A stretch of 64,000 nucleotides of DNA. Origin: Paracyclopina nana. Lineage: Eukaryota > Arthropoda > Copepoda > Cyclopoida > Cyclopettidae. Shown here piece by piece: positions 13,441 through 36,565 of this stretch. The translations under genes were made by a program, and so were the position numbers. The first letter of the stretch is position 1; every line of letters begins with the position of its first letter. Where the stretch lies: the NCBI GenBank assembly GCA_019096065.1, contig JAGUCH010000009.1, forward strand, positions 444,001 through 508,000, in the 5' to 3' direction. The notes below the pieces were generated by a model, which did no database searches, had not been told where the DNA came from, and saw nothing but the letters and a program-made list of their open reading frames with translations.

Positions 13441-14342
13441 GGTGTGCGACGGTCACACCCTCTGAAGCCTAGGATGGTTAGCATCGGCTTCATGGTCGCG
13501 GTACCGTTCGCAGCCTCCGGGTGCTGGCCGGATGTCTACTCGCCTTGGACCCAAAGCCGCAGCCTCAGTGCTCCAACTCTGGCGAGATACATCACATGGC
13601 AAGCTTCAGTGCTGTAGACCAGTGATTGGGCCTCCTACCCACGTCCTCAACGGCCTCAACAGCCTCAGACTAGGGTGCATAACTGCCCAGGAAACCTCTA
13701 TACAAGTTATGGTCGAACAAAGTCAAACAGGGTTGTCTTATTCACTCGGCTTTTAACACCACACAAATTAATGGCAGCAAATACAAAGAAATAAGTACTG
13801 CAGCAAATATTCTTGTGGCCATCTTCTTCATGCCTCAGCACACTTTGGAGAACTTTGGTGGGACAATAGCAGGGCAGAGCTCACTCAATGGGCCATGTGC
13901 ACTTGGTCCATGTCTTGTTTCTCTGAAGTCCCCCATCGAACTCCCCGAGTCTTCTCCTTCTTCTCCACTCGATGCATCGCAGCAAGTTCCATCAGCTTCC
14001 ATCTGCTTCTCTCCGTTATCATGCAGCTGCAGGTCCTCTCTATGTAGCAGCTAGCAACTCCTCCACTCAAGGTCAGGTGAATTGCCATAGGTAAGGCTCA
14101 ACGCATAGGTAGTAGCAGCAGCAGCAGCAACAATCAGAGAGTTGGAGGAGATGAAAAGGTGTTTTTTGAGAAGGGAGGTTTTGTGATTTTGAGATGGTGA
14201 TGTAGCGGTGAATGGGCAACCTTCCGGACTTCTGGCGGCTCCACGGGCTCCACGGTTTCCACAGGTTCCACTGGAGGGGTCCAATCAAGTCCTATTCTGG
14301 TCGTAACGTGCACCAGAGACATGATGTACTTATTGCCCATCA
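13441..14342 (-). repeat. 3' LTR (902 bp)
   Basis: Apparently identical to 35661-36565 except for one fewer GCA in a GCA run near 14117-14134. In element sense it begins TGATGGGCAATAAG and ends GACCGTCGCACACC, so the end is CC rather than the usual CA. The terminus GGTGTG...CACACC (plus strand) is palindromic. Short frames inside it recur in the other LTR simply because the DNA is duplicated. Confidence 0.92.
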
Positions 14343-14354
14343 TTCCCCGGCCCT
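14343..14354 (-). promoter_or_regulatory. Polypurine tract
   Basis: In element sense AGGGCCGGGGAA lies directly before the 3' LTR start TGATGGG. This is the expected position for priming plus-strand DNA synthesis; two C residues interrupt the purine run. Confidence 0.55.
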
Positions 14355-14446
14355 AACTTTTTCAGCTTTTGAAATAGTTTTTAAGCTCTAAAAATATAAA
14401 AAAGGTGTCATTGATCGCTTACATCACATTAAGGTTGATACAGTTA

Positions 14447-16331
14447 TTATACTAACGTCGCGCCTCCCAGGCCCCTCATTCGCACAGTAAGGCGCTGATT
14501 TTGGTCAGCATCTTTCTTGCGATCTCCTCTATTGTAGCGAAGCCGTGGGCGGGACGTATTAGGTCTCACATAGCCTCCATCATCATAACATCGGCTGCAT
14601 ACTCGCCGCCTTTTCCAAATCAATATGCCCATACACGTGAATCCCAGTGCTGCAGACAATAGGCTCACCGTCAGGATTATTTCCCAATTATTGAATAAAC
14701 CTCCAAGTTCATCTTCAGGGAATTTTGTAAAGAACTTCACCATATCACTTTCCCAAGGAGAGTCCTCGTATCCAGTACTTTGAGTTCCAAGGGAAACCTT
14801 ACAATTGCTAAGGATCTGATAGGATCCTGGTTCCAATACCACCGAGTTCTTGAAGTCATTTAAACAAGTCCTATTAATCATTGCACTTGAGACCAAATTT
14901 AAGAACCCTTTATAATTAGCACATCCCACATCAGTGAGCGTGTTAGTTTTAAGTGGCTCTAATTCACAGGCGTCAAAAGGGTCACCCAGAGCTAGCCCTA
15001 AAAGTACTTTAGCACAGTGCTGGACTCCTTCTGTCAAGTCAAAGTCCTTGTTTTCACACACGGTTAAATTATGGTCATGAACGAAGCAATCACTATAGAT
15101 GGGTATTTCCCGAGACACAAACACTAGATCATTTCGGCGGGTCAAATACCTATCATGCAGTAAGAATCCGTTTTTGCTTCGTGACACAATATGATATGTG
15201 ACCTCAGGGGTAGGGTCCATTTCTTTATACCCAACTATTCCCTGAGTGACAAAGTCTCCACTCTGCTCAGTGTTCGCCAAAGGTTCATAAACATTAGTAA
15301 TGGTGGCCGCATTTCTGTCACTATTATGCGCCAGAGTTGGTAAGCTGAACCGTGTGCCTGCCTGCCCAAAATTTCTGGCAAATTGCACAACTGTGTCAGC
15401 ATATGACAATACTTGCTGCAGATCATTTGGTAATAATCCAGACTTCAAAAATACCTTGCTAAAACCTTTCAGTAGTCGAAAGGCCAAAGAAACTTTCGGT
15501 GGTACTCTCAGTGGAGTGGTATTTGCTATCATGCCATCGGTGAATTTTGTCGATTTACCTGATTCTGCTAGGGCCATCACGGCGTTGTAGGCCTTTTCAA
15601 GGAAGCTTTTCCTCCCAGACAATTCAGATTTGACAAAGTCCTTATGGGTGATGACAAAGTCATTTTGAACACATATTGTTGCCTTCCCATCACTGTGTGG
15701 TGCATGGGCTTTAACTGACGTCATGGTCCTCGGCCCTTGTCCCACAGTGAAATACCCCGTGATACACGGGTAACCTGCAATTATCTCATCATCCGGTTTA
15801 AGCTCATACCCCACTTGAGGAAATGTGGTTTTCCCATCCAAGGACATAGGTACCTCATTGACGATCCGAAACTTTACACATAAAGTTACCTTAGTGGCAA
15901 GAGGGCTTTCCTTTGCCGTATAACGTAATAGTTCTAGAAAAACGTCCATGTCTTCATAAGTTTTAGGGGCAAATGGTACAAACCCTTGACGTTTGGAACA
16001 AGCTTTGTCGATGGTGTTGGGTACTCTCTTCTCCAACTGCCAACATATTCCCAATATGGACCAAGTCCTCCTTGTCCTTAACTTCTTTTACCACGGTGTC
16101 AATATTATTCAGGACGCCAATTGTTGATTGCAAAAGGCCACTGTAATCCTTCGTATCTAACACCATAGCCTTTTTCACCATTCTAGGATGATGGACCACT
16201 CTAACTGGAACTAGGGCATGTCCGGAATGGCAAAGTGCCTCATCCAGTACGAACTGAGTATTTGGGTAGTTGGACAGGCCCCAAGTGCCAGATCCCAAAA
16301 GGGTGAGTATGAAGGCCAATTCAAACGACAT
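14447..16331 (-). pseudogene. env: Envelope-like type I membrane glycoprotein, reading frame broken once
   Basis: Two overlapping frames cover one protein. The upstream one (16331-15963) starts with an ATG and a hydrophobic signal peptide. The downstream one is open from about 16054 to 14447 but lacks a nearby ATG, starting at a TTG. Its product is Cys-rich, has N-glycosylation sites, a single membrane anchor near the C terminus (about 14608-14680) and a basic, Arg-rich tail. The frame changes between about 15965 and 16054; this could be a mutation, programmed frameshifting or an unrecognised small intron. No furin-type site is obvious, and the fusion-protein family was not identified. Location just upstream of the polypurine tract fits env. 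Confidence is good that it is a viral-type surface glycoprotein and low on which class. Confidence 0.6.
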
Positions 16332-16386
16332 CTTACCAGCACAAACTCTGATCAGAAACTATTTGGGCCCCAAGACCGCTAACTTT

Positions 16387-16395
16387 CCTTATAAA
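16387..16395 (-). promoter_or_regulatory. TATA-like box before the env-like frame
   Basis: TTTATAAGG on the minus strand lies about 56-64 bp upstream of the ATG at 16331. It could serve an internal promoter, which is unusual for an LTR element. Confidence 0.35.
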
Positions 16396-16696
16396 CCCAG
16401 ACAAGTATGGGCACGCCACCTCACTATGTCTAGACATTCTTTGCTTTTTTCCATTGGTTTTTTATTATCATAGCATGTCGACATGTATGGTAAAAAGTTA
16501 AGAGTATTGGCCCACAACCAAGTATTTTATCAATATGTACAATTCGATTCTGAAGGGTAATTTCATTTTTTAGAACTGCCCGACAAATCCATTAATCGCC
16601 TCAGTGAATACCTTGATGTCGCTGGGGGTCATTTCCTCCATTTTAGCCTGGAGGAGATAGTTCACACGCTCCTTATTCTTATCGACTTTGGAGCGC

Positions 16697-17866
16697 TTAG
16701 CGTGCAAAATGTCTGGTCCATTCGTTCCTGCGCCAAAAGGGCGCCCGCGCTACATCGGCGTACAGTCTAGGTCCTCGCCTTGGTTTTTGTTGCCAAGACT
16801 TCTCCACAAACGCAGCTAGTTTTTGGGGCCTGGCCCCGGCTGTGTACCTCACGCATTGCGGATATGTCCCAATGGCTCGATCGACAAACTGGGCTACCAT
16901 GGTAGGCAGGAGTGCGGTCATATCGATCTTCACGTCCAATTTTCGTGGTGCTTGAGCCACGCCATTGTTAAGGCAGGACGGCGGTCCCACATACAGTTGC
17001 AAGTAAGGCGACGTCAAATCATGGAACATCCGCGGATCCCAAAATGATGAGTCCAATGTTGGCATGATCTGAATGCAGCCTCGCTTGGTATAATGTTTGG
17101 AGACTACTACAGGGAGTTGAGCTCCACCCTGTCCACGGATTCCATGCACATAATACCCAACAGCTGTTGGGCTCTGGACGGCAGACCAACTCCTGACATT
17201 GGCCAACTTATGGACATTCTCGTCATATTCCATCTTGTCAGGCAAGTTGTAGACTGGTAGATTGTCTAGCATCGGAAATATAACAAGAAAATCGGGAATC
17301 TCCCCTCCTTTACTCACTGGCTCGATAATCAATTCAATGCAGTCAAAGTTTTTCACCTTCAATGGCCTACGAGGCTCGGTCCGTTCATAGGGTTCTCCAT
17401 TTATCCTAATCGTTAGGTCAAAAGGCACCTCCTTTCCAACAGTCATGACCTCTTTCGTAGCTATCTTCAACAGGCTTGCATCATAATGCTGCTGTATAGT
17501 AGCTCTGGTCCGGCTCGCCTCCCTCGCATAGGCCTGTAGACCCTCCATGTGGGGAGGCCTGATCAAATCCTCAAATGGCAATGGGTACCCCAAACTGGAG
17601 GATACCCTTTCCAATGGGACCTCGAGGGGTTCCTCTTGGTCCTGGTGCCTAGTCGTCTGATTCTGGGCTTGATTCTCAATATTGACAGCAGGCATGTTGC
17701 GATCCATAACTGGCTCATCATCCTTTAGGAGCTCACTAACCTCATGCTCGTTGAACTCTCCAGTCTTATCAGTCTCCATCATGGAGACCAATGCAGATTC
17801 TCCTTCCATGGATTCGGTGATCAGAGACATCCTTAGGTTATCGAGGCTATTCAAGCTATCGCTCAT
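16697..17866 (-). CDS. 389-residue protein of unknown function in the retroelement
   Basis: An intact frame. An in-frame ATG also exists at 17944, but a TATAAAAAG sits between it and 17866, so I prefer the 17866 start. The N-terminal ~100 residues are acidic, Ser/Gln/Glu-rich and probably disordered. The rest (from about residue 100) is a folded-looking, beta-rich domain with a Lys-Val-Lys-Asn-Phe-Asp-Cys stretch and aromatic/proline-rich segments. The C-terminal 50 residues are strongly basic (Arg/Lys/Trp-rich). There is no signal peptide or membrane segment. The gene lies between env and the antisense genes, on the same strand as gag-pol. I do not recognise a family; a nucleic-acid-binding, matrix or movement-type structural role would only be a guess. 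Confidence 0.65.
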   Translation of the reverse strand: MSDSLNSLDNLRMSLITESMEGESALVSMMETDKTGEFNEHEVSELLKDDEPVMDRNMPAVNIENQAQNQTTRHQDQEEPLEVPLERVSSSLGYPLPFEDLIRPPHMEGLQAYAREASRTRATIQQHYDASLLKIATKEVMTVGKEVPFDLTIRINGEPYERTEPRRPLKVKNFDCIELIIEPVSKGGEIPDFLVIFPMLDNLPVYNLPDKMEYDENVHKLANVRSWSAVQSPTAVGYYVHGIRGQGGAQLPVVVSKHYTKRGCIQIMPTLDSSFWDPRMFHDLTSPYLQLYVGPPSCLNNGVAQAPRKLDVKIDMTALLPTMVAQFVDRAIGTYPQCVRYTAGARPQKLAAFVEKSWQQKPRRGPRLYADVARAPFWRRNEWTRHFAR

Positions 17867-17899: not shown

Positions 17900-17909
17900 C
17901 TTTTTATAC
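17900..17909 (-). promoter_or_regulatory. TATA box of the 389-residue ORF
   Basis: GTATAAAAAG on the minus strand, about 35 bp upstream of the ATG at 17866. This suggests the ORF is transcribed from its own promoter. Confidence 0.45.
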
Positions 17910-18232: not shown

Positions 18233-19282
18233 ATGGTCATTTTAGCCTGGGTTTCTCTAACTCCAGAGGGCAGCTCTACAGAGGCTCCCACTGAGGTTCC
18301 AATCCAGCCATCAACGGTGGATCCTGCGCTAGTGGATTCTCAAACCACGGGCCCAGTAGGTCCTACTGTTGCTATTCCTGAGAGTGGCATTTCTGAAGCT
18401 GAGGGTGGACCTGGGTTTGACCCAGCTCCTGTTGATCCCTTTGAGGTGGAGGTGTTTGACCCCCGAGATTTAATGCCAGCGGTACCAAATGGTTATCGTC
18501 CCGTTGCCCCTCAGAGGGACTGGATCGATGAGGTTTTCAATTATCACCGATACGGTGTAATGGGGTGGATCGGTCTTGGAGCCTCCATTGGGATGGCTTT
18601 GGTAAGTTCAACTTTATGGCTAGTTTTGCAACTATGGCCAAATTTTATTTACCACCTCTTCCTTACAGATTTTGCTTGGCATGTTGGTGTACTTCTGCGT
18701 GTGGACATCACGGTGGTGCCGTAGGTTCGTGGCCACGTTTCGAGCTATTCGTACGGAGTCAGCGGCTGCCCGTGGAGCCATGCAAATGCTTCCAACAAAG
18801 GCCCCATCTGAGCATGCAGCGGTATTTCACTGCTGTACACCAGAGGTCCGAGCTTTGCCAACAGCCCCGATTATGCGTGACCCTGATGTCCATTCGCTCC
18901 AAATGGCAATGGCTGCCATGGACCCCTATGGAACACTACGCCGGAATCCCAGCATCATGTCCGGGCTGGCCCACATCTATGACGTCCCTAATCCCAAGGG
19001 CTGGGTAAGGACCTATCAATTTATGAACTGTAAACAGGTTGCTCATGTACTCTTTTTCATGCACCTTTTCAGGTACCTGTTACTGAAGGGTGCGGGCCGC
19101 GGACTTTGAAGAGACGATCTCGCCGGGCTCGAGCCCGAGATAACCGTCGCTTGGATTCGGCAGCGGAGTCCATCCCGGACAAGGACGAAATCACTGAGGC
19201 TGAACCTCTCTCCATCGCAGATGAGGACCAGGATTCAGCTGGATCAAAGGCTTCCCAAGACGTCAACAGCGATGCCAACTAA
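18233..19282 (+). CDS. Antisense spliced gene 1: small single-pass membrane protein
   Basis: On the strand opposite to gag-pol. Three exons, 18233-18601, 18669-19004 and 19073-19282, are joined by two canonical phase-0 introns of 67 and 68 nt (GTAAGT...TTACAG and GTAAGG...TTTCAG), giving 304 residues. Residues 1-110 are Pro/Thr/Glu-rich. One hydrophobic segment spans the first splice junction (GASIGMAL then ILLGMLVYFCVW), followed by Arg-rich residues. The tail ends in a basic cluster (KRRSRRARARDNRR) and an acidic Ser/Asp-rich terminus. There is no signal peptide, so the Pro-rich part would be outside only if the anchor acts as a reverse signal-anchor. An AATAAA at 19586-19591 can end the transcript. 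Family unknown. The exon-intron design resembles antisense gene 2. Confidence 0.65.
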
Positions 19283-19585
19283 GGATCGCCACGAACTTGC
19301 GAGACGAAGATCGCTCTCTTTTCGCACGTTTTTAAGCGCGTTTTCTGTAACTTTAGCACTTTGTCCTTCTTATCGCGTGCGAATTCTCACTTTATAACTT
19401 GCATTTCCCGCAGTCTTCGCGGACTTTTCCACTTTTTCGAGATCTCGCAAACTTTTCGAGGCCTCGCAGACTTGCAGACTTCAAAGCCGGCTTTTGGCAA
19501 TTGCACTCGTCTTGTTTTTATTTTGATCTCAAAGCTTCCAATATACTCGAGTATATACTATAGTACTTGTATTCTATATATATGT

Positions 19586-19591
19586 AATAAA
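19586..19591 (+). terminator. Poly(A) signal for antisense gene 1
   Basis: AATAAA on the plus strand about 300 bp after the stop at 19282. Confidence 0.4.
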
Positions 19592-19766: not shown

Positions 19767-20306
19767 ATGGCGGGCTTCCTTCACGGCTTGTTCGTAAGTT
19801 TTTATTTCGATTAAAATCCGTTGAATCCTTTCGTAAAACTGTATCTTTTTCATTGGGAATGTAGAATCCTTCTACCACAACAGTGGCCCCCGCCACTGAG
19901 GCTCCCGTAGGGGCGCCCCCCGCGGCCGAGTCCGCGGCGGGGTGGCCCCAGCCACCTGCGGCCCCGCCCGCAGCCCCTTTGGGCCATCAGGAGGCGTGTC
20001 CTCCCTGCCCCGTTCAGGGCTTCGTAAGTGCATTATTCGTTATCTATTTGGTCAAAGCTCGACTTTTTTCTCGTATTACAGGCCGAAGAGATCCTCTAGG
20101 GCGTGGCCCTGAACGTGGCAGGGGCGGCCACGTATTACGTGGTGGTGCTCCCCGCCCTCGTCTGGGTCCATCGGACGAAGCCGAGAGGCCTCTACCGGCT
20201 TGTCAGCCGCGTGTGGGCGGAGCCCGAGGACCTCCCCCGCATTTCTGCGTGGGTCCTCCGCATGATGGGCGTGGCGGAGGCGGACCCCCTCGAAGGAGTC
20301 GTCTAG
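19767..20306 (+). CDS. Antisense spliced gene 2: GC-rich small membrane protein
   Basis: Best model: exons 19767-19793, 19865-20023 and 20100-20306, all phase 0, 130 residues. The donors are GTAAGT. The third exon uses the acceptor TCTAG at 20099; the alternative TTACAG at 20081 would bring an in-frame TAG after five codons, so that isoform would be truncated. The protein has a very Ala/Pro-rich first half with a CPPC motif, then a hydrophobic segment (VAGAATYYVVVLPALVWV) and a basic tail. Layout and the phase-0 intron next to the membrane segment match gene 1, suggesting paralogues. It is markedly GC-rich compared with everything around it. A further GTAAGT at the stop (20304) and TTTTGCAG near 20367 suggest a spliced 3' UTR ending at AATAAA 20470. 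Confidence 0.5.
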
Positions 20307-20678
20307 TAAGTCTAACTTATTCACTTAAGCTATCACAGCTTCACTATATTCATCTTATCTTTTGCAGAAATCGTCTCGTTATCGGTAGGCCACCGCACCG
20401 GCCAGGGCTGGCCCCAACGTGGCCCAAGGCCAGCCCGCCCCCCTCGCCTGGAGGCCTCCCTTACGGGACAATAAAGTCCACGTTCATTGTACTTTTGTGT
20501 CTACTGTGTTTACCGCAACTCATTTCGCGTTTACCTCAGCAGATAGCTCAGCCTTATGAAGCTCAGCACCTTTCTAGTCAAGTTCAGCAGTTCATTATCA
20601 TAGCCAAGCACATTTCGAGTCCAATTTTTTACATTTCATGGCCAAAAGGACCGTAGACCATATCTCAGGTGTCAAGAA
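20307..20678 (+). other. 3' region of antisense gene 2
   Basis: Contains a possible 3'-UTR intron (GTAAGT at 20305 to TTGCAG near 20367), a short GC-rich exon and AATAAA at 20470-20475. The remainder is AT-richer with no coding signal. Confidence 0.4.
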
Positions 20679-21038
20679 TTGCATTTTATTAGCGAATCAT
20701 TAGCGGCCCAAATCCACAGATTCGGGCCTGTAAATAAGCTAGCATTCCAGCTCGACCTTGACGGCCTTGACACTGCAAACGATGCTTCAATGTTCAAGAA
20801 AAGCGTTCACTATAGCCCTGCATTCCAGCTCGGGCTTGATGCAGCACCATATTTGAGTGTCTGTGATTACTACCGGCCAAGCGTTGGTGCTTATGGGCTA
20901 CCAATGCCAATTTGGCATCCTTTTTTTCCTTGGGCATTCCGGCTCGGCCTTGAGTGCGGCGAAGGAAACGTAGTCCCTACAGGACTGGAAAACCGGCCGT
21001 ATGTCATTGCACATAGCAAAAGCAAGCTCAAGCACTAG
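20679..21038 (+). other. Open frame over a GCATTCCAGCTCG repeat, 119 codons
   Basis: The frame contains three variants of a short repeat, encoding FQLDLD, FQLGLD and FRLGLE. The underlying DNA motif GCATTCCAGCTCGGNCTTGA occurs near 20742, 20820 and 20936 and again, outside the frame, near 21811. The start may not be an ATG in a good context and the composition is only weakly protein-like. It could be a repeat rather than a gene. Confidence 0.25.
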
Positions 21039-22289
21039 GCAATGGCACAATATTCTTTTCCATATCAGGCTAGAAGAGGTGTATTTTTCATTTTCTCACA
21101 TGTCAGTCTACAATGTGTGCTGACCTAGCTTGTTTTGCTAGTGCTGTGTTTAGCGTAAATTGAGTTCTCCACCAAAAAAGAGGGGATTCATGTGGCAACT
21201 GCAAGATAGCCATATTTCAGCACTTCTTTTATTTAACAATATGCCTAATCTTTGTGCACTTTGAACCTTTTCTACTGTTAGTCCATCTGGCGATCATTAG
21301 CGGTATCATTATAACATTAGTCATTTTCATTCTCTTGACTTTTATGCAACGTTTTATTTTATTCCTTGTACTCGCATAATAAATCCCGGAATTTGAGTCA
21401 CCACTCGAGCCAAGTATGGCCATTTTTGAGTTTAGTTAGGTTCAAAAACCTTCCCAGGTGAATTGTAGGTGCACCGGCGGTTCCAATCTTCATTGTTCGT
21501 TTTAGCCTTGGGCAAAACGTTTTTAGTATGTGGTTAGGCGCATGGTGGCGCCACCATTCTACATCTCCAAGTGAAGCCGCTCAAACTGGTTTTTTCTAGT
21601 GTGGGAGCGTCTCTGGATTTTTGTTCCATAACAACTTTTTGCCCCCCTTGGAGTCGGGTATCTGTTCGACAAAAGCTGGCTCAGCGTCTTTGCGCAATGC
21701 AACTCACATTTCAGTCTATCTTGCTCAAATGTTTTTTGTCTAGCCATTTTGAACAGACTCATAGATTATGTTTTATCTGTTATCACTGACTTGCATAGCT
21801 ATTATAGCTCTGCATTCCAGCTCGGTCTTGATGCGTGCATCAAGTTCAGGTGCTCATAACCGAAATTAATTTAAAAGATTGAGGTTGTCAGCACCGATCT
21901 TTTCAGCTAATTTCGGTTAGCACTAATAATAAGATCCATAAAGCAAATTTTGCACCTTTATGTGCTAGTGTTCAGATTTATAGTTTTTGTGGCACTTTGC
22001 CATTTCCAGTTTTATCTAGAAATTTTGTTTACAATACTTTCTCAGAGCGCGAGTGCGCTCAAAATTTGTGAAATTTTTGGGGCGCAGGCTGCATTTCCTG
22101 CGGCTACGTATATATACTCCCCCCTCCACAATTTTCTGCATTTTGTGGGAACTGTAGTGAGCAGTCACACAAAATTCAGGTAAGTATGTTTTCGAATCTT
22201 TAACTATAAAAGATTTAGCAGCTAGGCTAATTTTATTCAATTTTTTATTTGAACTATGGCGCCCGTGGGCACCCTCCATAATATCAAAA
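21039..22289. other. No gene recognised, inside the retroelement
   Basis: AT-rich, with scattered short frames on both strands. A plus-strand TATATATACTCCCC sits near 22106. One further copy of the GCATTCCAGCTCG motif is at about 21811. Function unknown. Confidence 0.4.
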
Positions 22290-23795: not shown

Positions 23796-23830
23796 AAGAT
23801 TACCGTCATCACGTCCTTTCTTACGAATCT

Positions 23831-26800: not shown

Positions 26801-28033
26801 TAGTGGTTTAGCAATTATCATCTTAGAATAAACATCGACAAATACTAACAGGTCTTTTGCAGAAGACCCTTTGACTAAAGTGTCATCGAACTTGGCCAAA
26901 TCAATCATTACCAATTCCCATGGCTGAGTCGGGATGCGGAAACGCCCCTTCCCAACAAACCTAGTATTAGCTTGGCGGTATAAAGCACAATGCATGCACG
27001 CACCAATAATAATACGACTGATTCTGGCTGAGTAAGTTGAATACATAGATTGGGTAAAAAGAGTATTAGTCTTTTTACTTCCCAAATGGTTATGTAGCAA
27101 ATGAATACATGCCATCAGGTACACACAGCTGGGCATACTCATATATACTTTCGTATTGGTCGCAACGCTAAAAGGTAACTTTACATTCTTGCGAATGACC
27201 AACAGGGCACCGTCAAGGACACGATATTTTACCGCAACATCTAGTGGTACTTTCTCTGGAGGCGAAAGCATAATTAAATTTATTATCTTTTGTGTTTCTT
27301 CACAATTTTGTTGCAACTTAATGAGTAGGTTGCGTGTAATTCCTGGTAAATGTGGCGATATTCGCCGTTTAACAGTGACTGTATCTACTCTTAAGTTATT
27401 TTCTATATGATTCACTGGCGAATCAAAATCAGCTTCACCATGAAATGAATGGGATAATTTAGAAAGTATCTCGTCCTCAAGAATTTCATCATCATCATGT
27501 TTTGCTTGGAGTAAGGTTGACGTGTCGTCGTGCACAAATGGCGGCTTCGTGCCGATCATGTCAACCCATTTGTCATTTAGGCGATGCAACCTTTTCTGGA
27601 GTAGAGTCTTACTCATAGTTCCAGAATTCACAAGTGTATCATACACATGTGTAAGTAATTCCTGTGTTGTAAGCACCTTATCTTTGATCGCATCGGGTAG
27701 AGGGTATTTATTTGAATAAATATCCTTAGTAATCTGTCCCGCAATAGAGTAAGGCGCATAAAATACAGTTTCACCTTCTGGTGTTTGATGGTATTTATTT
27801 AATAATACATCAACTACTTCTACCTCTGTGCGAGGCACAGCCCTCAATTTCCATGCTACAGGCAGGGAATAAATACGAGCTGCTAATCTATGAGTAAATG
27901 CATCTTTACCAGTAAACGAACTAGCCAGCACGCTGGCTATTGATAGACAATCCGTAACTATGACTAGCCGCTCATAGGCGAATAGTATGCTTTTAAAATG
28001 GTTTATCATTGTTAAAACTCCTAATGCTTCACG
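23831..28033 (-). CDS. pol: Pol, second part: RNase H (C-terminal part), integrase and long disordered extension
   Basis: This frame continues directly, in phase, after the UAG at 28036-28034. Its first codons encode REALGVL, the expected RNase H glutamate helix, so the ATG at 28009 is probably not a true start. Numbering from that Met, RNase H ends with a conserved IVTD (Asp20). Integrase follows with an HHCC-type zinc module (His near 303-308, Cys338 and Cys341) and catalytic Asp370, Asp431 and Glu471, with 39 residues between the last two instead of the classical 35. A beta-rich C-terminal domain lies near residues 600-660. After that come about 700 residues rich in Ser, Pro and Glu with no known domain, carrying two copies of a basic motif (LRRRKNVNYRSLAG and LRERKGTVDYRKLAG). 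Confidence 0.85.
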   Translation of the reverse strand, partial: REALGVLTMINHFKSILFAYERLVIVTDCLSIASVLASSFTGKDAFTHRLAARIYSLPVAWKLRAVPRTEVEVVDVLLNKYHQTPEGETVFYAPYSIAGQITKDIYSNKYPLPDAIKDKVLTTQELLTHVYDTLVNSGTMSKTLLQKRLHRLNDKWVDMIGTKPPFVHDDTSTLLQAKHDDDEILEDEILSKLSHSFHGEADFDSPVNHIENNLRVDTVTVKRRISPHLPGITRNLLIKLQQNCEETQKIINLIMLSPPEKVPLDVAVKYRVLDGALLVIRKNVKLPFSVATNTKVYMSMPSCVYLMACIHLLHNHLGSKKTNTLFTQSMYSTYSARISRIIIGACMHCALYRQANTRFVGKGRFRIPTQPWELVMIDLAKFDDTLVKGSSAKDLLVFVDVYSKMIIAKPLLDAKYKQVANAMEEVISLFGVPKTLLADNGAQLTTNKALQRLVDRYKIKELCHYRTLSPYKHSNAYAENAIRIIRSALVLNSNSYNMRLCDVFKTSIYAINNRPLTYLAYTDDKGVKITPTPFSLFFDKMPFYHLGRDVFEILSESEDKIHKAEWRQRMREYDLEEQFHLEKMKATERPSFKPEIGSLVLVIKHPINKQRYKFMDDLFEVIDIGQHSTVTVKPYLYDGLTREVSLDHVKLYRFHELYRFLPEKLSNLLKRPYTPEEILRKKARNEVIEFLEGAAPESHDYSLRGHTKASSIVASQSSLISQSTSMDTEPSAIHQTYKRSGSILMQKAASLFKPSDILRIQEENKQLVQKQWEQYDRKKLEEKYLADNAGNNILHKEASDSLSDTGTDDFIEQAIALSANTGPNEAFYEDMLALSQRGPPTFAEMAQQERLYPNLPSVKPDHISTPDRSNVSEGTLAGVSPVKWAFRGQYRDQRVPDIPESPEKYHTPDQSMSATPNKDNDNIEEIVEKAASFIAPSKFDTDLESLSAGLESMQLALPTDPFGGNTHDDEHESSDSDDTTTIYYTARKNLRRTPLTKSIKQNVQKAIDIVRRQLELSPRKRPPSPPIDNPMEGPSAPKPEIYGAEGGEPQVRYTIMKSPVRKPDLQPRNSELPNAGVPQTVPSTNVLEHFSAKVTPLGDLAMTEKEHIAHQATPGVAHPTVRQTGPVVPQPGTQKPPEAVVRAPYEPEKLSPLSFLPHNLRRRKNVNYRSLAGFQKYNKKNVPAGLPAIAQPDPSEALTRSEAALTTEQDTSPSQNVQQLLDTNLLVSSDQPSSSAATSFAEPKEPESSAAVQPTVEPEISEPAPIRILPRRQLRERKGTVDYRKLAGIRKYEKEKSKTGKEQKYFPNIPRIAPLDREDKEFARVRFTNTKERPDQKERELLEEVIPNWKLNKNMAAVPDYIQFLKATGMDHQDDSNINEMKRLRLTYDELYKLAFKKFK

Positions 28034-31000
28034 CTAAAACGAGTGGTACGAGAGGCAAACTGATAAAGGAAAGCGTGCGCTGTGTGCACCAACACACACA
28101 GCTTTACCATCCTCATTCACCTCCATTAATAAAGCTGATGTGCTAATTACCCCAGAATCAACCACTAAATAACCTTCTTTAAAACGTGGCAATGCCAGTG
28201 ACATACCTGTTTTAATCTCGTCTATTACTTTATAGAAACATTTTTCTTGGAAAGCAGTGAAGGTGAACTTTCCTGTTTTCCCTTGCGCTGTTTGTAATAC
28301 ATCTAGCAGTGGAGCTGTGTATGTAGCCATATTAGGACAGTACTGGCTTAACCAGTTTGTCATTCCAATAAACTTTTGCAGCTGTTTCTTGGTTGTGGGA
28401 ATAGGGAAATCATCAAATGCAGACCTGAATTTATCGGGCATTCGCATAGTCATAATCCCATTTTCGTCAATAGATATTAGGTGCCCTAAGACTGTAGCTT
28501 CTTTAACACCTAATTGTGTCTTTTTAATTTGTAATAGGGCATTTAAGTCCTTGAGGCTTTGAAACAACTTCCTCAGATCACCTAAATGTCGTATGTAATC
28601 ATCCAATGTAGCAGGCCTAGGCTCGCCAGGGTTCTTACAGGCCACAACCAAATCGTCTACATATACACATGTAAAGGGCAATATCTCAGGGTTAAGGGCC
28701 TGTTGGAGGAGCTCTGCGAACATTCTCGGAGCAATGGCGATCCCTTGTAGGCATGACTTACTTTTCAGAAAGACTGATCTATATATACTGCGAGGGGACG
28801 TTACTGCAAAGCAGCACATATCAGCACTATCAGAGTCCACAGGTAAGTTATCGTATCCGGATGTTACATCGAAAGATGACATTAAACACGAATTAGATAA
28901 CATCCCTAGCAAGGTAGGGATAGGTGGCACTATGTGCTCCGAAGTCGTAAATATCAGATTTTTATTAAAAGATGTTAAGTCAACTAGTAGCCGAGGCTTG
29001 CGTTGCTTCATAGGCAGCTTTTCATCATTTGGCCTTGAAGTCAAGAAACAAGGGCAAGCCGAGTACCTATTAAGTGACTTATCCACAATTTCAATTAATC
29101 CAGATGACAGCATTAATGCTATTTTACGGTCAACCTGCGTAGTTTCATACTCCGACATGTTAAATACTTTTGGCACTAATGGTTTATCATCCTTTAACTG
29201 GAACTTCATGGGTTCGACATTCCATAGCCTATATGATCTAGGATCCTCCGAGAATATAGTCTTATATTCTATTAAGAGGTCCCTAAAGTCTTCTCTGACC
29301 TCATCCGGAATGTGTTCTAGATCCATGTTCAGGATCGTGTCTGGTTTCAATGGAAATGTATAACCTGCTACTCCATTTAAAACACGGAGGGGGTCAAATT
29401 CACTTGGAAATTTCAAAAGGAGATTATAAACCTCATCATATAGTTTTTGGTTATTTCTCTCATCTTTAGAAAGCTCCAGGCTAGCTGATACGAGGTCTAG
29501 TTCAGAAGGACTTTTTAGAACTGTTTGTCTGACACTGGTATCCACAATAGGACCTTCGTAAATAGTAGTGAAGCTCTTAAGTGGCACTTTGATGCCCATG
29601 TTCTTTGCCAAGCAAGGCTTGCACGAGCAACCATGTGGTTCAAGTACAAATGGTATAAATTTACCAAATTTTGTCTTTATATCCTCTTTGGTAAGGTCAT
29701 CAGGGTACATTTGTAACCCAGATAACACTAGCAATGCAGCGGTGGTTGCCATACAAAGTGGGTCACCTACATGCACATCGCCATCCATAAGTGTTCTGAT
29801 CCACACGTCGTCGGCCACATTTTGGTACCGTAATTGACCAATTATTATGTACATAAGCGTGGTTAAGTAGCCAATATTCTCAGCATGTTCGCTAGGGACA
29901 TGGAATATTAACTCAACATTGTTGGACAACTTAAACATGATACCATGAGCTCCAAGAACATTTAGTTCAAAATACTTATCTAGTTCATTTCTTTGATAAG
30001 CAAGGGGGTAATTCTCATACTCATGTATCATCATAGTTATTATGACCCTATCCATCCCATTGAGGTAGGATTCAATAGGACACAAGGCAATGGTCATGCA
30101 TGGTGGGCAAATATACTTATATTTTAGCCATACTACTTTAAGTTTATCCACCATCATATTCATCTTTATTACAATGCGCTTTTGTTCGCCAGACAAAAGT
30201 TTATGCCCTGGGACAATAACAGCCCACGGTAATTCATCCCATTTTTCTCGTTTCATAAATTTGCTAATTATCACATCAGTTATCTCTTCGTAACCATCAC
30301 TTTGGTTAGCTGAGATAAATACGTAATTTCCTTTTCTACTAATCATAGGCTTGTGGCTTCCCCTTAATGGCTCATAGGCATTGAAAAAATGCATATCAGT
30401 AAAGGAAAGTCCATTTATATCAGTAAACTGCACAATTACGTGCGAATCTAAATAATTGCAGTAACATGACTCCATCTCATGCTCCAGAGCCTTTAGACTA
30501 ATGTTAGCCACATGGGCTGCAACCGTACTTTTAAACTTCTGTTTCTTGACAATCCTGGCTCGCCCAATCACTGCATGTGCATTTAAGTAGATGGGATCCT
30601 CAGTATTATTCCCAATATTTACTGGGAAAGTACCTTTACGAGTGACTGCAGTAAGTGCCCCCTCAGAGGTCACTCCGCGGTACTCGTTACTAGGCATAAA
30701 GTTTAAGTACTTATCCACCAACCCGGAATAGACATTCTTCTGGCGGTGAGTACGACTAAGTTCGTCATCTTCGTCCGAGTCAGAATCTATTTGGATATCA
30801 TTACTGATGACAGGTAAATCATGAGGTAAACTAGCCATGGCAGTCACTTCTTCTCCAGGGAGCAGAGTGATCCCTTCATTTATTGCTACTGGGTAGAAAG
30901 CCTCTTTTGATAGTAATAGTGGAATTTTCTTATGCTTAGATTTTCCAGGAAAATCAATAAAGTGCTTTCCATCTTTACTAGTCATCCGGACATTATTGTC

Positions 31001-31834
31001 CACTAATAACGAGTTCCCTATCATTAATAGTGTATCGCAATCAGACACAAGGAAAACAGCCTGTCTGATTAAAACACGATTTCCAAATGCAACTTGAATA
31101 GAGACAGCTTCATTCCCTGGGAATTCTTCTCCATTAAAGTTCTTAATTACATAATTAGTTTCAACTCGAGGTAGAGTGTAACCAATCTTGTCTTCGATCA
31201 GTTTTACAAGGGTGCGTGATATTATCTGCACCATTGCTCCACTGTCAAATAAAGCATGCAAACGTATTTTTCCAGTTATCTCCACTGGTATAAAATACCT
31301 TTCACAAACATTGTGTAGCTTTAATGAGTATATACTCAGCATGTCATCTTCAAGTTCCGGATTCGGTAAAGGTTCAAAATGTGTTACTGGCTCTGCTTCA
31401 TTAGCATTTACCGAGGCCAGATGTGTAACGATACCATCATTACTACAAGTTTTTTGCTCATCACTCGTGCTACCTTTTACAAAGTAGTACCATAAAGCTA
31501 TTATTGCTCCACTACAGATTACTGTAATTGGCCAATAATCCCAACCAAATAAGCAATATTGACATATTGTTATTGCAAACAGTATTATGCTAATCTCAAT
31601 TACAGTCATAGTATGCTGATGGACAAACCGACTTTTTCTACCCCTTATTGCAAGGACCAGAGCCTTTTTGTCCTCACTTCCACGAGTCATAATTTCGGCA
31701 TTTTTCACAGATTGCTCCTTTAAATAATCAAAGTAAGCTCGTCCTACTTCTTTGTTACATTCTCCCCTCATAAATGAAGGCAAGATGTAACTATCTTTAT
31801 CATTCTTATTGGGAGTTTTTGTACTTGGTCCCAT
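28034..31834 (-). CDS. pol: Pol, first part: membrane segments, protease, reverse transcriptase, start of RNase H
   Basis: 1,266 residues ending in a UAG. The ATG overlaps the gag stop (TAATG). Residues 78-119 form two hydrophobic segments separated by WDYW, unusual for Pol. An aspartic protease follows with the active-site LFDSGA at 195-200. Residues about 330-800 match no domain I can name and include an Asp/Glu cluster and Cys/His pairs. The RT has a SSFDVTSGYDNLPVD palm motif and catalytic YVDD at 1058-1061, then LGHLIS and the FIGMTNWLSQYCPNM connection typical of Ty3/gypsy. RNase H begins near 1218 (VVDSG) and the frame stops inside it. The product would process Gag-Pol and make cDNA. 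Whether the UAG is suppressed or is an inactivating mutation cannot be seen. Confidence 0.88.
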   Translation of the reverse strand: MGPSTKTPNKNDKDSYILPSFMRGECNKEVGRAYFDYLKEQSVKNAEIMTRGSEDKKALVLAIRGRKSRFVHQHTMTVIEISIILFAITICQYCLFGWDYWPITVICSGAIIALWYYFVKGSTSDEQKTCSNDGIVTHLASVNANEAEPVTHFEPLPNPELEDDMLSIYSLKLHNVCERYFIPVEITGKIRLHALFDSGAMVQIISRTLVKLIEDKIGYTLPRVETNYVIKNFNGEEFPGNEAVSIQVAFGNRVLIRQAVFLVSDCDTLLMIGNSLLVDNNVRMTSKDGKHFIDFPGKSKHKKIPLLLSKEAFYPVAINEGITLLPGEEVTAMASLPHDLPVISNDIQIDSDSDEDDELSRTHRQKNVYSGLVDKYLNFMPSNEYRGVTSEGALTAVTRKGTFPVNIGNNTEDPIYLNAHAVIGRARIVKKQKFKSTVAAHVANISLKALEHEMESCYCNYLDSHVIVQFTDINGLSFTDMHFFNAYEPLRGSHKPMISRKGNYVFISANQSDGYEEITDVIISKFMKREKWDELPWAVIVPGHKLLSGEQKRIVIKMNMMVDKLKVVWLKYKYICPPCMTIALCPIESYLNGMDRVIITMMIHEYENYPLAYQRNELDKYFELNVLGAHGIMFKLSNNVELIFHVPSEHAENIGYLTTLMYIIIGQLRYQNVADDVWIRTLMDGDVHVGDPLCMATTAALLVLSGLQMYPDDLTKEDIKTKFGKFIPFVLEPHGCSCKPCLAKNMGIKVPLKSFTTIYEGPIVDTSVRQTVLKSPSELDLVSASLELSKDERNNQKLYDEVYNLLLKFPSEFDPLRVLNGVAGYTFPLKPDTILNMDLEHIPDEVREDFRDLLIEYKTIFSEDPRSYRLWNVEPMKFQLKDDKPLVPKVFNMSEYETTQVDRKIALMLSSGLIEIVDKSLNRYSACPCFLTSRPNDEKLPMKQRKPRLLVDLTSFNKNLIFTTSEHIVPPIPTLLGMLSNSCLMSSFDVTSGYDNLPVDSDSADMCCFAVTSPRSIYRSVFLKSKSCLQGIAIAPRMFAELLQQALNPEILPFTCVYVDDLVVACKNPGEPRPATLDDYIRHLGDLRKLFQSLKDLNALLQIKKTQLGVKEATVLGHLISIDENGIMTMRMPDKFRSAFDDFPIPTTKKQLQKFIGMTNWLSQYCPNMATYTAPLLDVLQTAQGKTGKFTFTAFQEKCFYKVIDEIKTGMSLALPRFKEGYLVVDSGVISTSALLMEVNEDGKAVCVGAHSARFPLSVCLSYHSF

Positions 31835-34398
31835 TATTGTTTACGAGCAGGTCGTGTCTTCCAACACTGTTCTCCCCTAAACTCAAGGTGCAATCCTTTA
31901 CACAACGGGCACAATGTGCCATCGTTTCTAATTGAGGTCAAATTCGTGTTTGGGTAATTTGTACACTGTGTAGCGTAATGCATTTGGTTGCAGAACAAGC
32001 ACCCATTAGTCTGAAGAGGGTTTCCTTCAGGCAACTTAGATGTATCTATGTTAAAAGTTTTTCCCAACCTATTTATTTTCTCGGATGGTGATTCAGCTTT
32101 CATCATAGCTACTTCAACAGCTTGCCTACTCAACTCAAAATTTGCTCGAGCCAACTCGCATTGTAGCTCATTTATTATTTTAGCACTTCGTTGACTACGG
32201 CCAGAGGCTGCTGACATAGTGCTAGCACTGTCTAACACCTCTTCTTCAGTAGCTTCAACCATAGCAATTCTAGGTTTGGCACGCATATTGGGTACCATTG
32301 GCAGCCTCTCCTCTTTATGAGCCCTATCCAGGTCCCTTGGCACATAGGTACCTAGGTCACTGCCAATCAAGTTCATCATGATATTGTAGGCGTGCAAACT
32401 CCTAGCAGGTATATTCGCTCTCAGCAGATAGTCGTTGTATTTGTTTACTAATGACTGGTAATTCTGAGGCCAATGACGTCCTAAAAGTGCAAAACCATCA
32501 GAGATGGCTTCAGAGACTGCATGAGCATCTCCGCCATCTCCAATGGTTGTGCTATGTATCTTCATTCGCAGTCGAAGAATTGCCTTAAGTGTGGCAGTGA
32601 AGCACTCAGTAGGCTTCCGGATCATCTCCTGAATGAGGAAATATGGATCCTCTTTACGCACAAACTGCGTGTAGTTAAAGATATCTTGCCATAGCAATTC
32701 CATACCATCTTTTCCTTCTCCAGCCATCCCCTTAAAATACTCACTAGTATTCTGGGATGAAGCCTCACACATGGCTGTTAACAAAGCTGCATGAGACCAA
32801 TGCTGTCTGCCAGCCTCGTTCGCCATATAGTCCAGAAAATTTATTATATTCTCAGCAGTTAATGAGGAACTATGTAAATCAAACTTTTTAGTATATTTGT
32901 GCCTAATCTCCTTCATTGACTGTGAGCTTGCATACTTAACATGGCCATTCGTAGGTGCAGCGATGTAACCTCTCATGGTAGTCGGATCATAAATGCTCCT
33001 AGAAGTGTCAGCTGATACTCCAGCGGCCACACTTATTTCAGGGGTCTTCAAGTAGCCCTCTGCCAATATCTGCTTTTGGAGAGAAGTAAACTCGTCCCTC
33101 GTGCTAAGTACACTAAAGAGCTTCTGCATCTCAATCAATTTCTTTCCTGAGGATAAGTTTGGGTCAACCATCTGAAGGATTACTCGTCTGGCTGATTCCA
33201 CATCCTTAATCTCGTCGGTGTTAATTAACTTCAGCCTCTCTGAAATCGGAGCAGACTCATCGTAGATGACGTCAGTTTCCGGCACCATTCTTTCCTTCGT
33301 CGCAGCATCTACTATGCTTAAGGTTCTTTCTAAATTCTTACTGAAGATAGACTCTACTTTTGCCCCAACCATGTGCTTAGCCGTGATTTGTGCAGAGGCA
33401 ATGATTTTATTTGCCGTGCTTGCATCATGCATTTTCGTGTAGTAAGCTTTTACCGTGTTCAATTCCTGAATATTCAAATGGCCTCCTGACAACATCTTTT
33501 GTACCATCCTATGTACAACTTCCATTGGAGGAAGCGTGACAGAATTAGTCAAGTTGTGCAAATCACGAGGATTCATTTTAGTCGAGGTTAGGACTGAATT
33601 ATTTTGGCCATTCAGATCAACACCTGTAGTGAACTCATGATGGTTAGTCCCAGGTGGACTTGCTATCGAGGACATATCTGGAACAGCATTACTCGTCTCA
33701 TTGTTTGGAAAATGTACACTCTGGCCTGAAGTTTTCTGTGGCTTCAGGTTAAGCGGCTCATTTAGGAAATAATCGATTTGTAGGCCATAAAGCCTTGCTA
33801 CAATAGAAAATCCATCTCCAAATGCCCGTATCTTTAGCCAATTTCTGGATATCAATGTCGCAACCATTTCATGCGTCCCTGACATTGCGTAGGTCATGGA
33901 GCTTCCATCAACTTCTTGGATACGCTGCAGATCTTTCTTTTCCTCAATACGAGTTAGGAACTCATCCAGACCAAAACAAATGCATAATAAAGCACATGTC
34001 GTGCTTGTCAATGAATTAGGGTCAAGTGCATCAATATATTTAACCACATTTACAACCTGGCCTACTGGATCTTTAAGAGGCATAGTACTAATGATTGCCG
34101 TAATATGATCATCCAACGGTCTAATTGGCTCCCTAGGAACAATTACTATTCGAGTCCTATCCCATACAGCTGCTATTTGTGCTGGGGTTACCGTAACAAA
34201 CTCTAGTGCTTCAGGGTAAGCAACGTGTGGCAGAAATCTTTGCAAGACAGTCCTGCTGGTCCCATTTGGGTGGCATTGGGATAAGTACCCTTGAAAAGTG
34301 TCCTCACTAATCCCAAGATGGTGCAACAATCGCTCCTTGACTTTCGTAACTTCCTCAGCCAGAGTAGGTCCAGCGATCCTAGAATCCTGATTTGCCAT
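31834..34398 (-). CDS. gag: Gag polyprotein
   Basis: An intact 854-residue frame starting at the ATG at 34398. The bulk is helical, with predicted coiled-coil character around residues 720-780. Near the C terminus are two CCHC-type knuckles, C-x2-C-x3-H-x4-C at about 800-812 (CLFCNQMHYATQC) and C-x2-C-x3-H-x7-C at about 830-845. Paired knuckles separated by a short Arg-containing spacer recall BEL/Pao Gag. Gag would assemble the virus-like particle and package the RNA. The stop codon TAA overlaps the pol ATG by one base. No separate promoter is evident; expression is expected from the LTR. Confidence 0.82.
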   Translation of the reverse strand: MANQDSRIAGPTLAEEVTKVKERLLHHLGISEDTFQGYLSQCHPNGTSRTVLQRFLPHVAYPEALEFVTVTPAQIAAVWDRTRIVIVPREPIRPLDDHITAIISTMPLKDPVGQVVNVVKYIDALDPNSLTSTTCALLCICFGLDEFLTRIEEKKDLQRIQEVDGSSMTYAMSGTHEMVATLISRNWLKIRAFGDGFSIVARLYGLQIDYFLNEPLNLKPQKTSGQSVHFPNNETSNAVPDMSSIASPPGTNHHEFTTGVDLNGQNNSVLTSTKMNPRDLHNLTNSVTLPPMEVVHRMVQKMLSGGHLNIQELNTVKAYYTKMHDASTANKIIASAQITAKHMVGAKVESIFSKNLERTLSIVDAATKERMVPETDVIYDESAPISERLKLINTDEIKDVESARRVILQMVDPNLSSGKKLIEMQKLFSVLSTRDEFTSLQKQILAEGYLKTPEISVAAGVSADTSRSIYDPTTMRGYIAAPTNGHVKYASSQSMKEIRHKYTKKFDLHSSSLTAENIINFLDYMANEAGRQHWSHAALLTAMCEASSQNTSEYFKGMAGEGKDGMELLWQDIFNYTQFVRKEDPYFLIQEMIRKPTECFTATLKAILRLRMKIHSTTIGDGGDAHAVSEAISDGFALLGRHWPQNYQSLVNKYNDYLLRANIPARSLHAYNIMMNLIGSDLGTYVPRDLDRAHKEERLPMVPNMRAKPRIAMVEATEEEVLDSASTMSAASGRSQRSAKIINELQCELARANFELSRQAVEVAMMKAESPSEKINRLGKTFNIDTSKLPEGNPLQTNGCLFCNQMHYATQCTNYPNTNLTSIRNDGTLCPLCKGLHLEFRGEQCWKTRPARKQ

Positions 34399-35637
34399 TC
34401 TTATCTTGTAAAAGGCGTGACGGAGTCACACTGAGTATTTCTTATCTCTTAGAGGTGCAACGGAGTCACACGCAATATTCTGGTCTTAGTACACTACTGT
34501 GTGTACTAAATTCGGCAATACCGAATTAAAAGCTATACGCTGTTCAAAGCACAGGGAAGCTTATCCTAGTTACTACGCCGCGTCAAGTGACACAGAGAAA
34601 AAGGTTGCAATTGCTAAGCTCGTTTATTTATTTTTTGTCAAGGCTATGAGCGGCCAAGACAAAACACACACACAAACGCACGCACAAATACACACACTCA
34701 CTTATTACAATATAAAAGATGGAGTAAAATTTGGCACTACTGGTGCCAACAGGTGTATGGATGGTAATTTCTTCTAAGTCTCTGAAACAAAGGTGCATCA
34801 ACTTTTTACGCAAAAAAGGTATGCCACTTCGCCAACCAGTGTCGACTCAGTGAATGAAAAAATAAAAGTTTGCCCACTCCTCCTCGAGTTGCGGGCCGGC
34901 CAACCTTCCCTGTGCCCTCGGCAACTTGTCCAAGGTTAGCCAGTTTTTTGGGCCCCAAACACGCATTTTCCTTTGTGGCTCCCACTCTGGCTCCACGCGT
35001 GGCCTATTTGGGGTTTGTTGACTCACAACGGAGTCATGGATTACATCATCTTCTTCCATCTGTGTGGCCAAACCCACGGACGAGACCCACTAGTGTCGCA
35101 ACACTCTTGCGCTCACTCGCCCCATTATGGATAGGCAACAGAGGCTCAGGTCGCAACCTGCACCTTGGCTGGCTTTCCGGCTGCCATGGCACCCATACTC
35201 CAAGCTATGCCATGCGGAGCCTGCACGCATGCATTCACCTCCGGGAAAGACAGTGTCATTGTTACTTTGTGTAGGCCCATCATCATAACAATGGTCCATG
35301 GAAGACATCATCAACGGGCTGGTGGTACGTCACGGCCTGTACCTTCTTGCACTCCCCGCGCGCCAGTTCCAACCCGCCAACGGCATCAATGCGCAATTTG
35401 GGTCTAAGGGAATCTAAAGCCTACGCACCACATAGGCCCAAATGCCATCGGAGTGACCCCCATCGGCTCGTCAGCCTTCGGGATTTTTGCTTTTGTACTG
35501 TAGTAGACACACCCTGATCGCAATCAGCGTGCGGCCCAACCTGCGCCGCAGAGCAGGAATCTTGATCCACACCAAGACATTTTCCGGGACTTCGTTGTAT
35601 TTTGGTCTTCAAACCTTTAGGAGAGAAAGTGGCCTTC
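34399..35637 (-). other. Element leader (5' untranslated region)
   Basis: 1.24 kb between the primer-binding site and gag with no convincing coding frame. It holds a CA-rich stretch (34661-34702, plus strand) and a segment at about 34530-34620 that matches 47190-47275 in inverse orientation. Just upstream of the gag ATG are two imperfect copies of GTGTGACTCCGT (34410-34470), each followed by a partial complement, suggestive of small RNA hairpins. Confidence 0.6.
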
Positions 35638-35656
35638 AATCCCTCCGGGGCCTCCA
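35638..35656 (-). promoter_or_regulatory. Primer-binding site, tRNA-Thr type
   Basis: In element sense TGGAGGCCCCGGAGGGATT, four nt from the LTR edge. It begins with the TGG that pairs with tRNA CCA. Animal threonine tRNAs that end in GGGGCCTCCA would pair over the first 11 nt, with a two-base mismatch thereafter (GA for CT). This is based on remembered tRNA-Thr sequence, not a search. Confidence 0.65.
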
Positions 35657-35660
35657 AAAT

Positions 35661-36565
35661 GGTGTGCGACGGTCACACCCTCTGAAGCCTAGGATGGTTA
35701 GCATCGGCTTCATGGTCGCGGTACCGTTCGCAGCCTCCGGGTGCTGGCCGGATGTCTACTCGCCTTGGACCCAAAGCCGCAGCCTCAGTGCTCCAACTCT
35801 GGCGAGATACATCACATGGCAAGCTTCAGTGCTGTAGACCAGTGATTGGGCCTCCTACCCACGTCCTCAACGGCCTCAACAGCCTCAGACTAGGGTGCAT
35901 AACTGCCCAGGAAACCTCTATACAAGTTATGGTCGAACAAAGTCAAACAGGGTTGTCTTATTCACTCGGCTTTTAACACCACACAAATTAATGGCAGCAA
36001 ATACAAAGAAATAAGTACTGCAGCAAATATTCTTGTGGCCATCTTCTTCATGCCTCAGCACACTTTGGAGAACTTTGGTGGGACAATAGCAGGGCAGAGC
36101 TCACTCAATGGGCCATGTGCACTTGGTCCATGTCTTGTTTCTCTGAAGTCCCCCATCGAACTCCCCGAGTCTTCTCCTTCTTCTCCACTCGATGCATCGC
36201 AGCAAGTTCCATCAGCTTCCATCTGCTTCTCTCCGTTATCATGCAGCTGCAGGTCCTCTCTATGTAGCAGCTAGCAACTCCTCCACTCAAGGTCAGGTGA
36301 ATTGCCATAGGTAAGGCTCAACGCATAGGTAGTAGCAGCAGCAGCAGCAGCAACAATCAGAGAGTTGGAGGAGATGAAAAGGTGTTTTTTGAGAAGGGAG
36401 GTTTTGTGATTTTGAGATGGTGATGTAGCGGTGAATGGGCAACCTTCCGGACTTCTGGCGGCTCCACGGGCTCCACGGTTTCCACAGGTTCCACTGGAGG
36501 GGTCCAATCAAGTCCTATTCTGGTCGTAACGTGCACCAGAGACATGATGTACTTATTGCCCATCA
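35661..36565 (-). repeat. 5' LTR (905 bp)
   Basis: The upstream copy in element orientation. It matches 13441-14342 throughout, apart from one additional GCA. It should carry the promoter for the gag-pol RNA. Confidence 0.92.

Follow-up and report, generated by a model that had tools for sequence, protein, structure and literature searches.

The minus strand of the window, i.e., the whole 64-kb stretch of the Paracyclopina nana genome analysed here (C9:444001-508000), carries one complete long terminal repeat (LTR) element of 23,125 bp (13441-36565). With a probability of roughly three in four, this element represents a provirus-like copy from an old lineage of giant endogenous retroviruses (ERVs) of the Ty3/gypsy type, equipped with a two-strand accessory cassette that includes two predicted antisense genes (AS1 and AS2). 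As judged from the sequence, LTRs, a 5-bp target site duplication (TSD), gag, a pol gene for protease (PR), reverse transcriptase (RT), RNase H and integrase (IN), an env-like protein, the gene ACC and two antisense genes occur as a full set in at least two element families and in part in others. Since a similar gene layout recurs in distant element families of the genome (92 Mb in 10 contigs searched), the lineage appears to be distinct and old rather than an accident. The unusual retroelement or ERV-like lineage with accessory genes proposed by the original prediction is supported by dozens of copies with the same layout and by five further loci. All positions are those of the window unless a contig is named.

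Gene layout among copies and related families

DNA searches with ACC, the LTR, gag and AS1 each yielded at least 40 scored matches, so that the numbers of copies are lower bounds; dozens of copies share the common layout. Of the 31 places where a single gag and a single ACC were matched, 28 show a gag-ACC distance of 16.2-16.7 kb (20.9, 22.3 and 23.3 kb in the other three), a count that leaves out a tandem pair on C4 and places missing a gag or ACC match. The 40 LTR matches among those listed form 18 pairs and 4 singles. Equal bit scores in 16 of the 18 pairs are as expected of young insertions, equal scores being no proof of identity; the window pair is one of the two with unequal scores. LTR spacing is enlarged in some copies (28.1 and 29.1 kb in two, 44.6 kb in one). 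The widest pair (C2:2182715-2228260) probably delimits a copy holding another element, while at C4:863909-903941 two copies lie head to tail with their gag starts 22,282 bases apart, a distance close to the sum of one internal region and one LTR, as with a shared LTR.

Beyond the window family, the env search returned 12 rows with identities of 43-45 % and a single row with about 64-65 %. In five other loci, the ACC-env pair is accompanied, on the side facing pol, by one or both antisense genes, the env proteins being 64, 45, 43, 28 and 26 % identical to that of the window family. In the second family (L079, L078, L069), order and orientations are as in the window, with identities of 47 % over 683 aa for gag, 65-67 % for pol, 47 % for ACC and 45 % for env. 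AS2 is again antisense in this family and 72 % identical over 54 aa in the region of the membrane segment; AS1 again has three exons, exon 2 measuring 336 nt in both families, and the introns keep phase and place.

AS2, AS1, ACC and env are present in L081/L076, which hold the env copy of about 65 % identity, and AS1, ACC and env in L080/L075. The ACC search furthermore revealed two distant groups, one of 9 rows (25-27 % identity) and one of 7 (23 %), one locus of each being read. At the first (L089), in a stretch that does not reach pol, ACC and env (28 %) are accompanied by a match to AS2 (46 % over 54 aa) and by a membrane protein in antisense that resembles AS1; at the second (L090), ACC, env (26 %) and an antisense gene resembling AS1 accompany the integrase part of pol, which is 35 % identical. 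A predicted intron inside the AS1 membrane segment recurs in the window family, L078, L081, L080, L089 and L090, the AS1 exons of the last four being read by eye.

Coding signals and anatomy of the element

The two spliced genes on the opposite strand claimed by the original prediction are borne out as predictions, with a codon signal in AS1 and with splice sites and poly(A) signals of both genes kept among copies and in the second family. The predicted AS1 exons comprise 369, 336 and 210 nt (the last including the stop), separated by introns of 67 and 68 bp, and would encode a single-pass membrane protein with a basic tail. Among 19 copies, AS1 variant sites distribute over codon positions 1/2/3 as 19/20/60, i.e., 60 of 99 at the third position (p 2.6e-8), after the labels of exons 2 and 3 had been shifted by one base so as to match the exact starts of the exons. 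In AS2, exon 1 provides 9 codons, exon 2 is rich in proline and exon 3 carries a single hydrophobic membrane segment; a predicted intron starts within the AS2 stop codon. An in-frame TAG (20097-20099) lies a few codons into exon 3, directly ahead of the membrane segment. This TAG is shared by the seven aligned rows of the window family (window plus six copies), in all of which splice sites and AATAAA are kept as well, and by L078, L081 and L089, i.e., by all four lineages in which AS2 was found. It may represent a second splice acceptor or a readthrough stop, either of which would yield short and anchored forms.

The 389-codon open reading frame (ORF) noted previously corresponds to the version of the 415-aa ACC frame that begins at the later ATG. 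ACC is shortened in the window copy; counted from the upstream ATG, 10 of 19 other copies have a frame of 455-458 aa. Its variant sites (9/7/32 at codon positions 1/2/3 in 19 copies) fall at the third position in 32 of 48 cases, and those of env (12/4/27 in 6 copies) in 27 of 43. The env-like gene, likewise claimed before and split in the window copy, is 628 aa long in 5 of 6 other copies fetched. Genome-wide, 40 env rows with near-full cover and at least 89 % identity were found, of which 37 are free of stops, not counting 19 near rows with partial cover as expected of broken copies or pieces.

In its anatomy, the 628-aa product resembles the envelope of an ERV: it is encoded past pol and has a signal peptide (by eye), an ectodomain bearing cysteines (16 Cys in the protein), three N-glycosylation motifs and, from about residue 550, a hydrophobic segment as membrane anchor, the three motifs lying ahead of the segment. 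The env C-terminus (14450-14461) reads G/A-A-T-L-V in the window family, L069, L073 and L075, which resembles a PDZ-binding tail; L089 and L090 have other endings. Two single-sequence AlphaFold predictions reached mean pLDDT (predicted local distance difference test) values of 33 and 32 (env 32) and were not used in fold searches.

ACC and AS1 diverge from a common spacer. A TATA-like box lies no more than 70 bp ahead of the start in 7 of 8 scored ACC and env regions, with start codons chosen by the analyst (for the window ACC the ATG past the box), compared with 286 of 4250 internal control windows that overlap one another. Positive are both genes of the window family, the ACC regions of L078 and L081, and the env regions of L069, L076 and L077, of which L077 is a close copy belonging with the window family. 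Outside this score, TATAAAAG was seen by eye upstream of the L080 ACC.

The presence of gag and pol was confirmed, the latter in two pieces separated by an in-frame stop in the window copy. At the matching offset of 20 other loci, the pol junction is open in 17; one locus has a stop elsewhere, one is rearranged and one is not homologous. The pol ATG shares one base with the gag stop (TAATG), and the one-base overlap is also found in the second-family frames. Two hydrophobic segments precede the protease in pol (31478-31618) and are kept in the second family despite a local identity of 20-28 %. The affiliation with Ty3/gypsy or BEL/Pao, left undecided by the original prediction, is now narrowed by RT, whose best match among 12 solved relatives is Ty3 Gag-Pol (E 2.5e-18), an assignment by solved-structure matches and not by a tree.

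The domain order PR-RT-RNase H-IN is apparent from DSGA, RT with YVDD, an HHCC-like motif and an rve match in sequence, the latter scoring 31.2 bits just below the Pfam cut-off of 32.6, and RNase H being placed by position and by the extent of the Ty3 match. Together with LTRs and a short TSD, these features agree with a Ty3/gypsy (Metaviridae-type) element. Gag had no significant match in Pfam. Protein database searches gave nothing at E 1e-3 with residues 1-620 of pol piece 2 (best-sharing candidates scored), with ACC or with an env profile (best-sharing candidates scored). Among viral contigs, 10 pattern matches to pol piece 1 were obtained and none was confirmed, and PHROGs gave no match for env, second-family ACC or gag.

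Table 1. Coordinates of the element and its features within the window
Feature	Position	Strand	Remarks
5' LTR	35661-36565	-	905 bp; TAACT-flanked
PBS-like stretch TGGAGGCCCCGGAGGGAT	35639-35656	-	contains TGG; 4 bp past 5' LTR
gag	31834-34398	-	854 aa; C-terminal zinc-knuckle-like C-x2-C-x3-H-x4-C
pol piece 1	28034-31834	-	1266 aa; 2 hydrophobic segments, protease DSGA, ~570-aa unmatched stretch, RT YVDD, RNase H start
pol piece 2	23831-28009	-	1392 aa; remaining RNase H, integrase, long C-terminal extension
Segment lacking a detected coding signal	20600-23830
AS2 (predicted)	19767-20475	+	exons 19767-19793, 19865-20023, 20082-20305, 20368 on; AATAAA 20470-20475
AS1 (predicted)	18233-19591	+	exons 18233-18601, 18669-19004, 19073-19282; 304 aa; AATAAA 19586-19591
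TATA-like box of ACC TATAAAAAG	17900-17908	-
ACC	16697-17866	-	389 aa from ATG after TATA-like box; 415 aa with upstream ATG
TATA-like box of env (TATAAGG)	16387-16393	-
env-like gene	14447-16331	-	split by frame change: 16331-15963 and 16054-14447
3' LTR	13441-14342	-	902 bp
TSD (TAACT)	13436-13440 and 36566-36570

The near-identical direct LTRs and the TAACT duplication on both sides were found as claimed, the LTRs aligning over 902 bases with no mismatch and one 3-bp gap. The supposed TG...CA ends proved to be TG...CC in element orientation; termini are variable among Ty3/gypsy-type elements. As to the primer-binding site (PBS), a TGG-bearing PBS-like stretch is indeed present, and no primer tRNA was found for it at the 7 sites sampled; a 16-base part of its complement has 73 occurrences genome-wide (both strands). 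The polypurine tract is present as well, but weak, its purine run being broken by CC. The internal region (14343-35660; 21,318 bp) exceeds the 20 kb beyond which retroelements are termed giant in the accessible part of PMC6431247.

The gene-bearing block of about 9.4 kb between the end of pol and the 3' LTR stands as far as ACC, the env-like membrane protein and the predicted AS1 and AS2 are concerned. Parts of it are GC-rich, and some 3 kb (23.8-20.6 kb) lack a significant coding signal: none of the four ORFs examined there has a significant third-position excess, and a coding role of this stretch was dropped.

Outside the element, a 15-bp tandem repeat array with reading frames open on both strands (12280-13254) lies about 190 bp off the 3' LTR. 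Animal-type genes flank the element at 41000-63000 (FANCA-like, Tau95-like, thiolase, CC2D1-like with DM14 repeats, and Staufen-like with double-stranded RNA-binding and Staufen_C domains). The whole genome yields 73 matches to zf-C4 (nuclear receptor DNA-binding) and a tandem 5S rRNA array on C1. The zf-C4 matches contradict a ctenophore host, this domain not being known from ctenophores. No Col_cuticle_N match was obtained, which speaks weakly against a nematode host, as the controls gave none either, and a search for COX1 yielded nothing.

Alternative explanations and proposed expression

Several observations weigh against an old ERV lineage with a coding cassette. In the window copy, pol, env and ACC are all damaged. 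Neither env nor ACC has significant homology to Pfam families or solved structures, for which reason the label 'envelope' depends on the anatomy of env, and the furin-like motif R-x-K/R-R is absent from the two env proteins examined. The five AS1/AS2 exons have no match in Pfam, nor does the membrane part of AS2 match a solved structure significantly. The codon signal of AS2 is the weakest (21 of 38 variant sites at the third position, p 0.004), and cross-family identity of AS1 is low (34 % over 32 aa), so that AS1 is recognised across families mainly by its position, by where its introns fall and by its membrane segment.

Further families hold just part of the gene set: AS2 could not be detected within the 6.3 kb of L080 that were read, nor was it recognised in the L090 stretch read, and its tail is apparently frameshifted in L081. 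Finally, no TATA-like box was found up to 70 bp upstream of the L075 env, and the choice of start codons bears on the TATA count as such. As to the damage, open pol, env and ACC frames exist in other copies, since other loci read through these genes.

The combination of own TATA-like boxes and two-strand coding differs from the usual single-promoter retroviral plan and might reflect acquisition of the whole ACC-env-antisense cassette from an unrelated virus, followed by fusion to a Ty3-type element in which it would still function as a viral gene block. The lack of ACC or env relatives in the databases searched and of a Pfam family for the AS1/AS2 exons would agree with such an origin. It is nevertheless considered unlikely: a donor virus was not found, the databases are possibly poor in animal sequences so that absent matches tell little, and the cassette accompanies pol in the window family as well as in the second family and in L090.

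Still less probable is that the antisense frames are relics and that the antisense transcript itself matters, e.g., as a regulatory or double-stranded RNA-forming RNA. While noncoding antisense RNAs are known from other retroelements (PMC7264820, accessible part) and the AS2 codon signal is weak, the third-position excess of AS1, the equal length of its exon 2 and conserved phase and place of its introns in both families, and the similarity of the AS2 membrane segment between families argue for proteins.

That an unrelated 9-kb segment once entered an ordinary Ty3 element by nested insertion, host-gene capture or an assembly join is hardly credible despite the length, partial GC-richness and 3-kb noncoding portion of the block and the insertions that some copies do carry, because the same genes are found where pol is 65-67 % identical, ACC, env and an AS1-like gene even where the integrase part is only 35 % identical, selection is visible gene by gene, and the multi-family layout contradicts it, barring several independent gains of the block. 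The search for copies lacking the 14.4-23.8-kb block, by which such an insert or join would have been revealed, led to the constant gag-ACC spacing in 28 of 31 places, which rules out a one-off event.

For the ERV lineage with its own two-strand cassette, expression may be envisaged as follows. Genomic RNA would start from the 5' LTR and be translated to Gag, while stop-restart at the one-base gag/pol overlap would produce a separate, membrane-anchored Pol. ACC and env would be expressed from their own TATA promoters. Once the provirus is in place, host polymerase would transcribe the other strand to give spliced, exported AS1 and AS2 mRNAs. The introns could outlast retrotransposition, as the RNA that is packaged has the opposite polarity, in which the splice sites are not read.

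AS2 might be formed in a short and a membrane-anchored version via alternative splicing or readthrough at the conserved TAG. One may guess that AS1 and AS2 are small surface proteins aiding assembly, trafficking or dealings with the host cell, and that ACC has a role in assembly. Taken further, the elements could tentatively be regarded, at somewhat less than even odds, as ancient ambisense retroviruses: enveloped and derived from Ty3, with a Pol that is produced separately from Gag and membrane-anchored by an N-terminal hairpin, a separately promoted cassette on both strands, a two-form surface protein switched by TAG, and antisense introns that are kept.

Relation to known elements and significance

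Retroviruses and LTR elements usually have one promoter, use one strand and measure about 10 kb. Errantiviruses are marked by a baculovirus-F-like env with a furin site, from which the present element differs by the missing R-x-K/R-R in the two env proteins and by the lack of a Pfam match. The HBZ gene of human T-cell leukaemia virus (HTLV) is spliced.

As far as the accessible parts of PMC11963269 and PMC7264820 go, HBZ and other retroviral antisense genes resemble AS1 and AS2 in encoding a protein on the strand opposite gag-pol; HBZ is nuclear, whereas AS1 and AS2 are predicted membrane proteins whose genes have two and three predicted introns, respectively. The same sources describe antisense coding regions between pol and the 3' LTR for the plant Ty3/gypsy elements Retand and Grande, conserved across families and in many cases without clear protein similarity, the antisense gene of Grande having its own promoter and a nuclear product. 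The long region between pol and the 3' LTR with antisense coding is shared with the window element. In the portions of these papers at hand, Retand is a plant element with 2.9-6.6 kb in this region, an antisense protein with a TRP28 domain and no sense ORF with a membrane segment, whereas the window element has 9.4 kb with predicted spliced membrane-protein genes, ACC and env. Assignment to the Retand lineage, i.e., an antisense protein with TRP28 (PF04195), is not indicated by the five AS1/AS2 exons, and the word 'intron' is absent from the main texts of both papers.

Among animals, the giant gypsy-like Burro elements of planarians have internal regions of up to 25 kb (PMC6431247) and, in what is available of that review, resemble the window element as animal, Ty3-type and giant elements with accessory domains and an env-like region. 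They differ in that the accessory domains belong to a sense polyprotein of 4,873 aa and to accessory ORFs and that env is located between gag and pol; the term 'antisense' is absent from the review as available. Old and widespread enveloped Ty3/gypsy lineages of metazoans (Chary and Hayashi 2025, as mentioned in PMC12859917) are likewise comparable as old enveloped lineages, the comparison being by that mention alone. The LTR elements Juno, Vesta and TelKA of bdelloid rotifers also possess extra ORFs, including small membrane proteins, with env in one lineage; in contrast to the window element, an ORF3 is described downstream of pol (PMC5408684, accessible part). In the titles and abstract beginnings listed from open-licence papers, spliced antisense genes for membrane proteins were not seen in any LTR element of animals.

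Antisense coding genes past pol are thus established in plants, giant Ty3-type elements with env-like parts in planarians, extra ORFs in rotifers and old enveloped Ty3 lineages in animals; the combination of giant size, spliced antisense membrane-protein genes, ACC and env was not seen in the open-licence listings covered. The extra genes are probably useful to the element, because much of the set has been kept while the proteins diverged to about 25 % identity. The lineage unites features that are singly rare, i.e., a length above 20 kb, predicted intron-bearing genes on the opposite strand and predicted internal promoters. It thereby offers a natural test of the limit to retroelement genome size, of the upkeep of antisense introns through an RNA cycle and of extra surface proteins in an enveloped retroelement.

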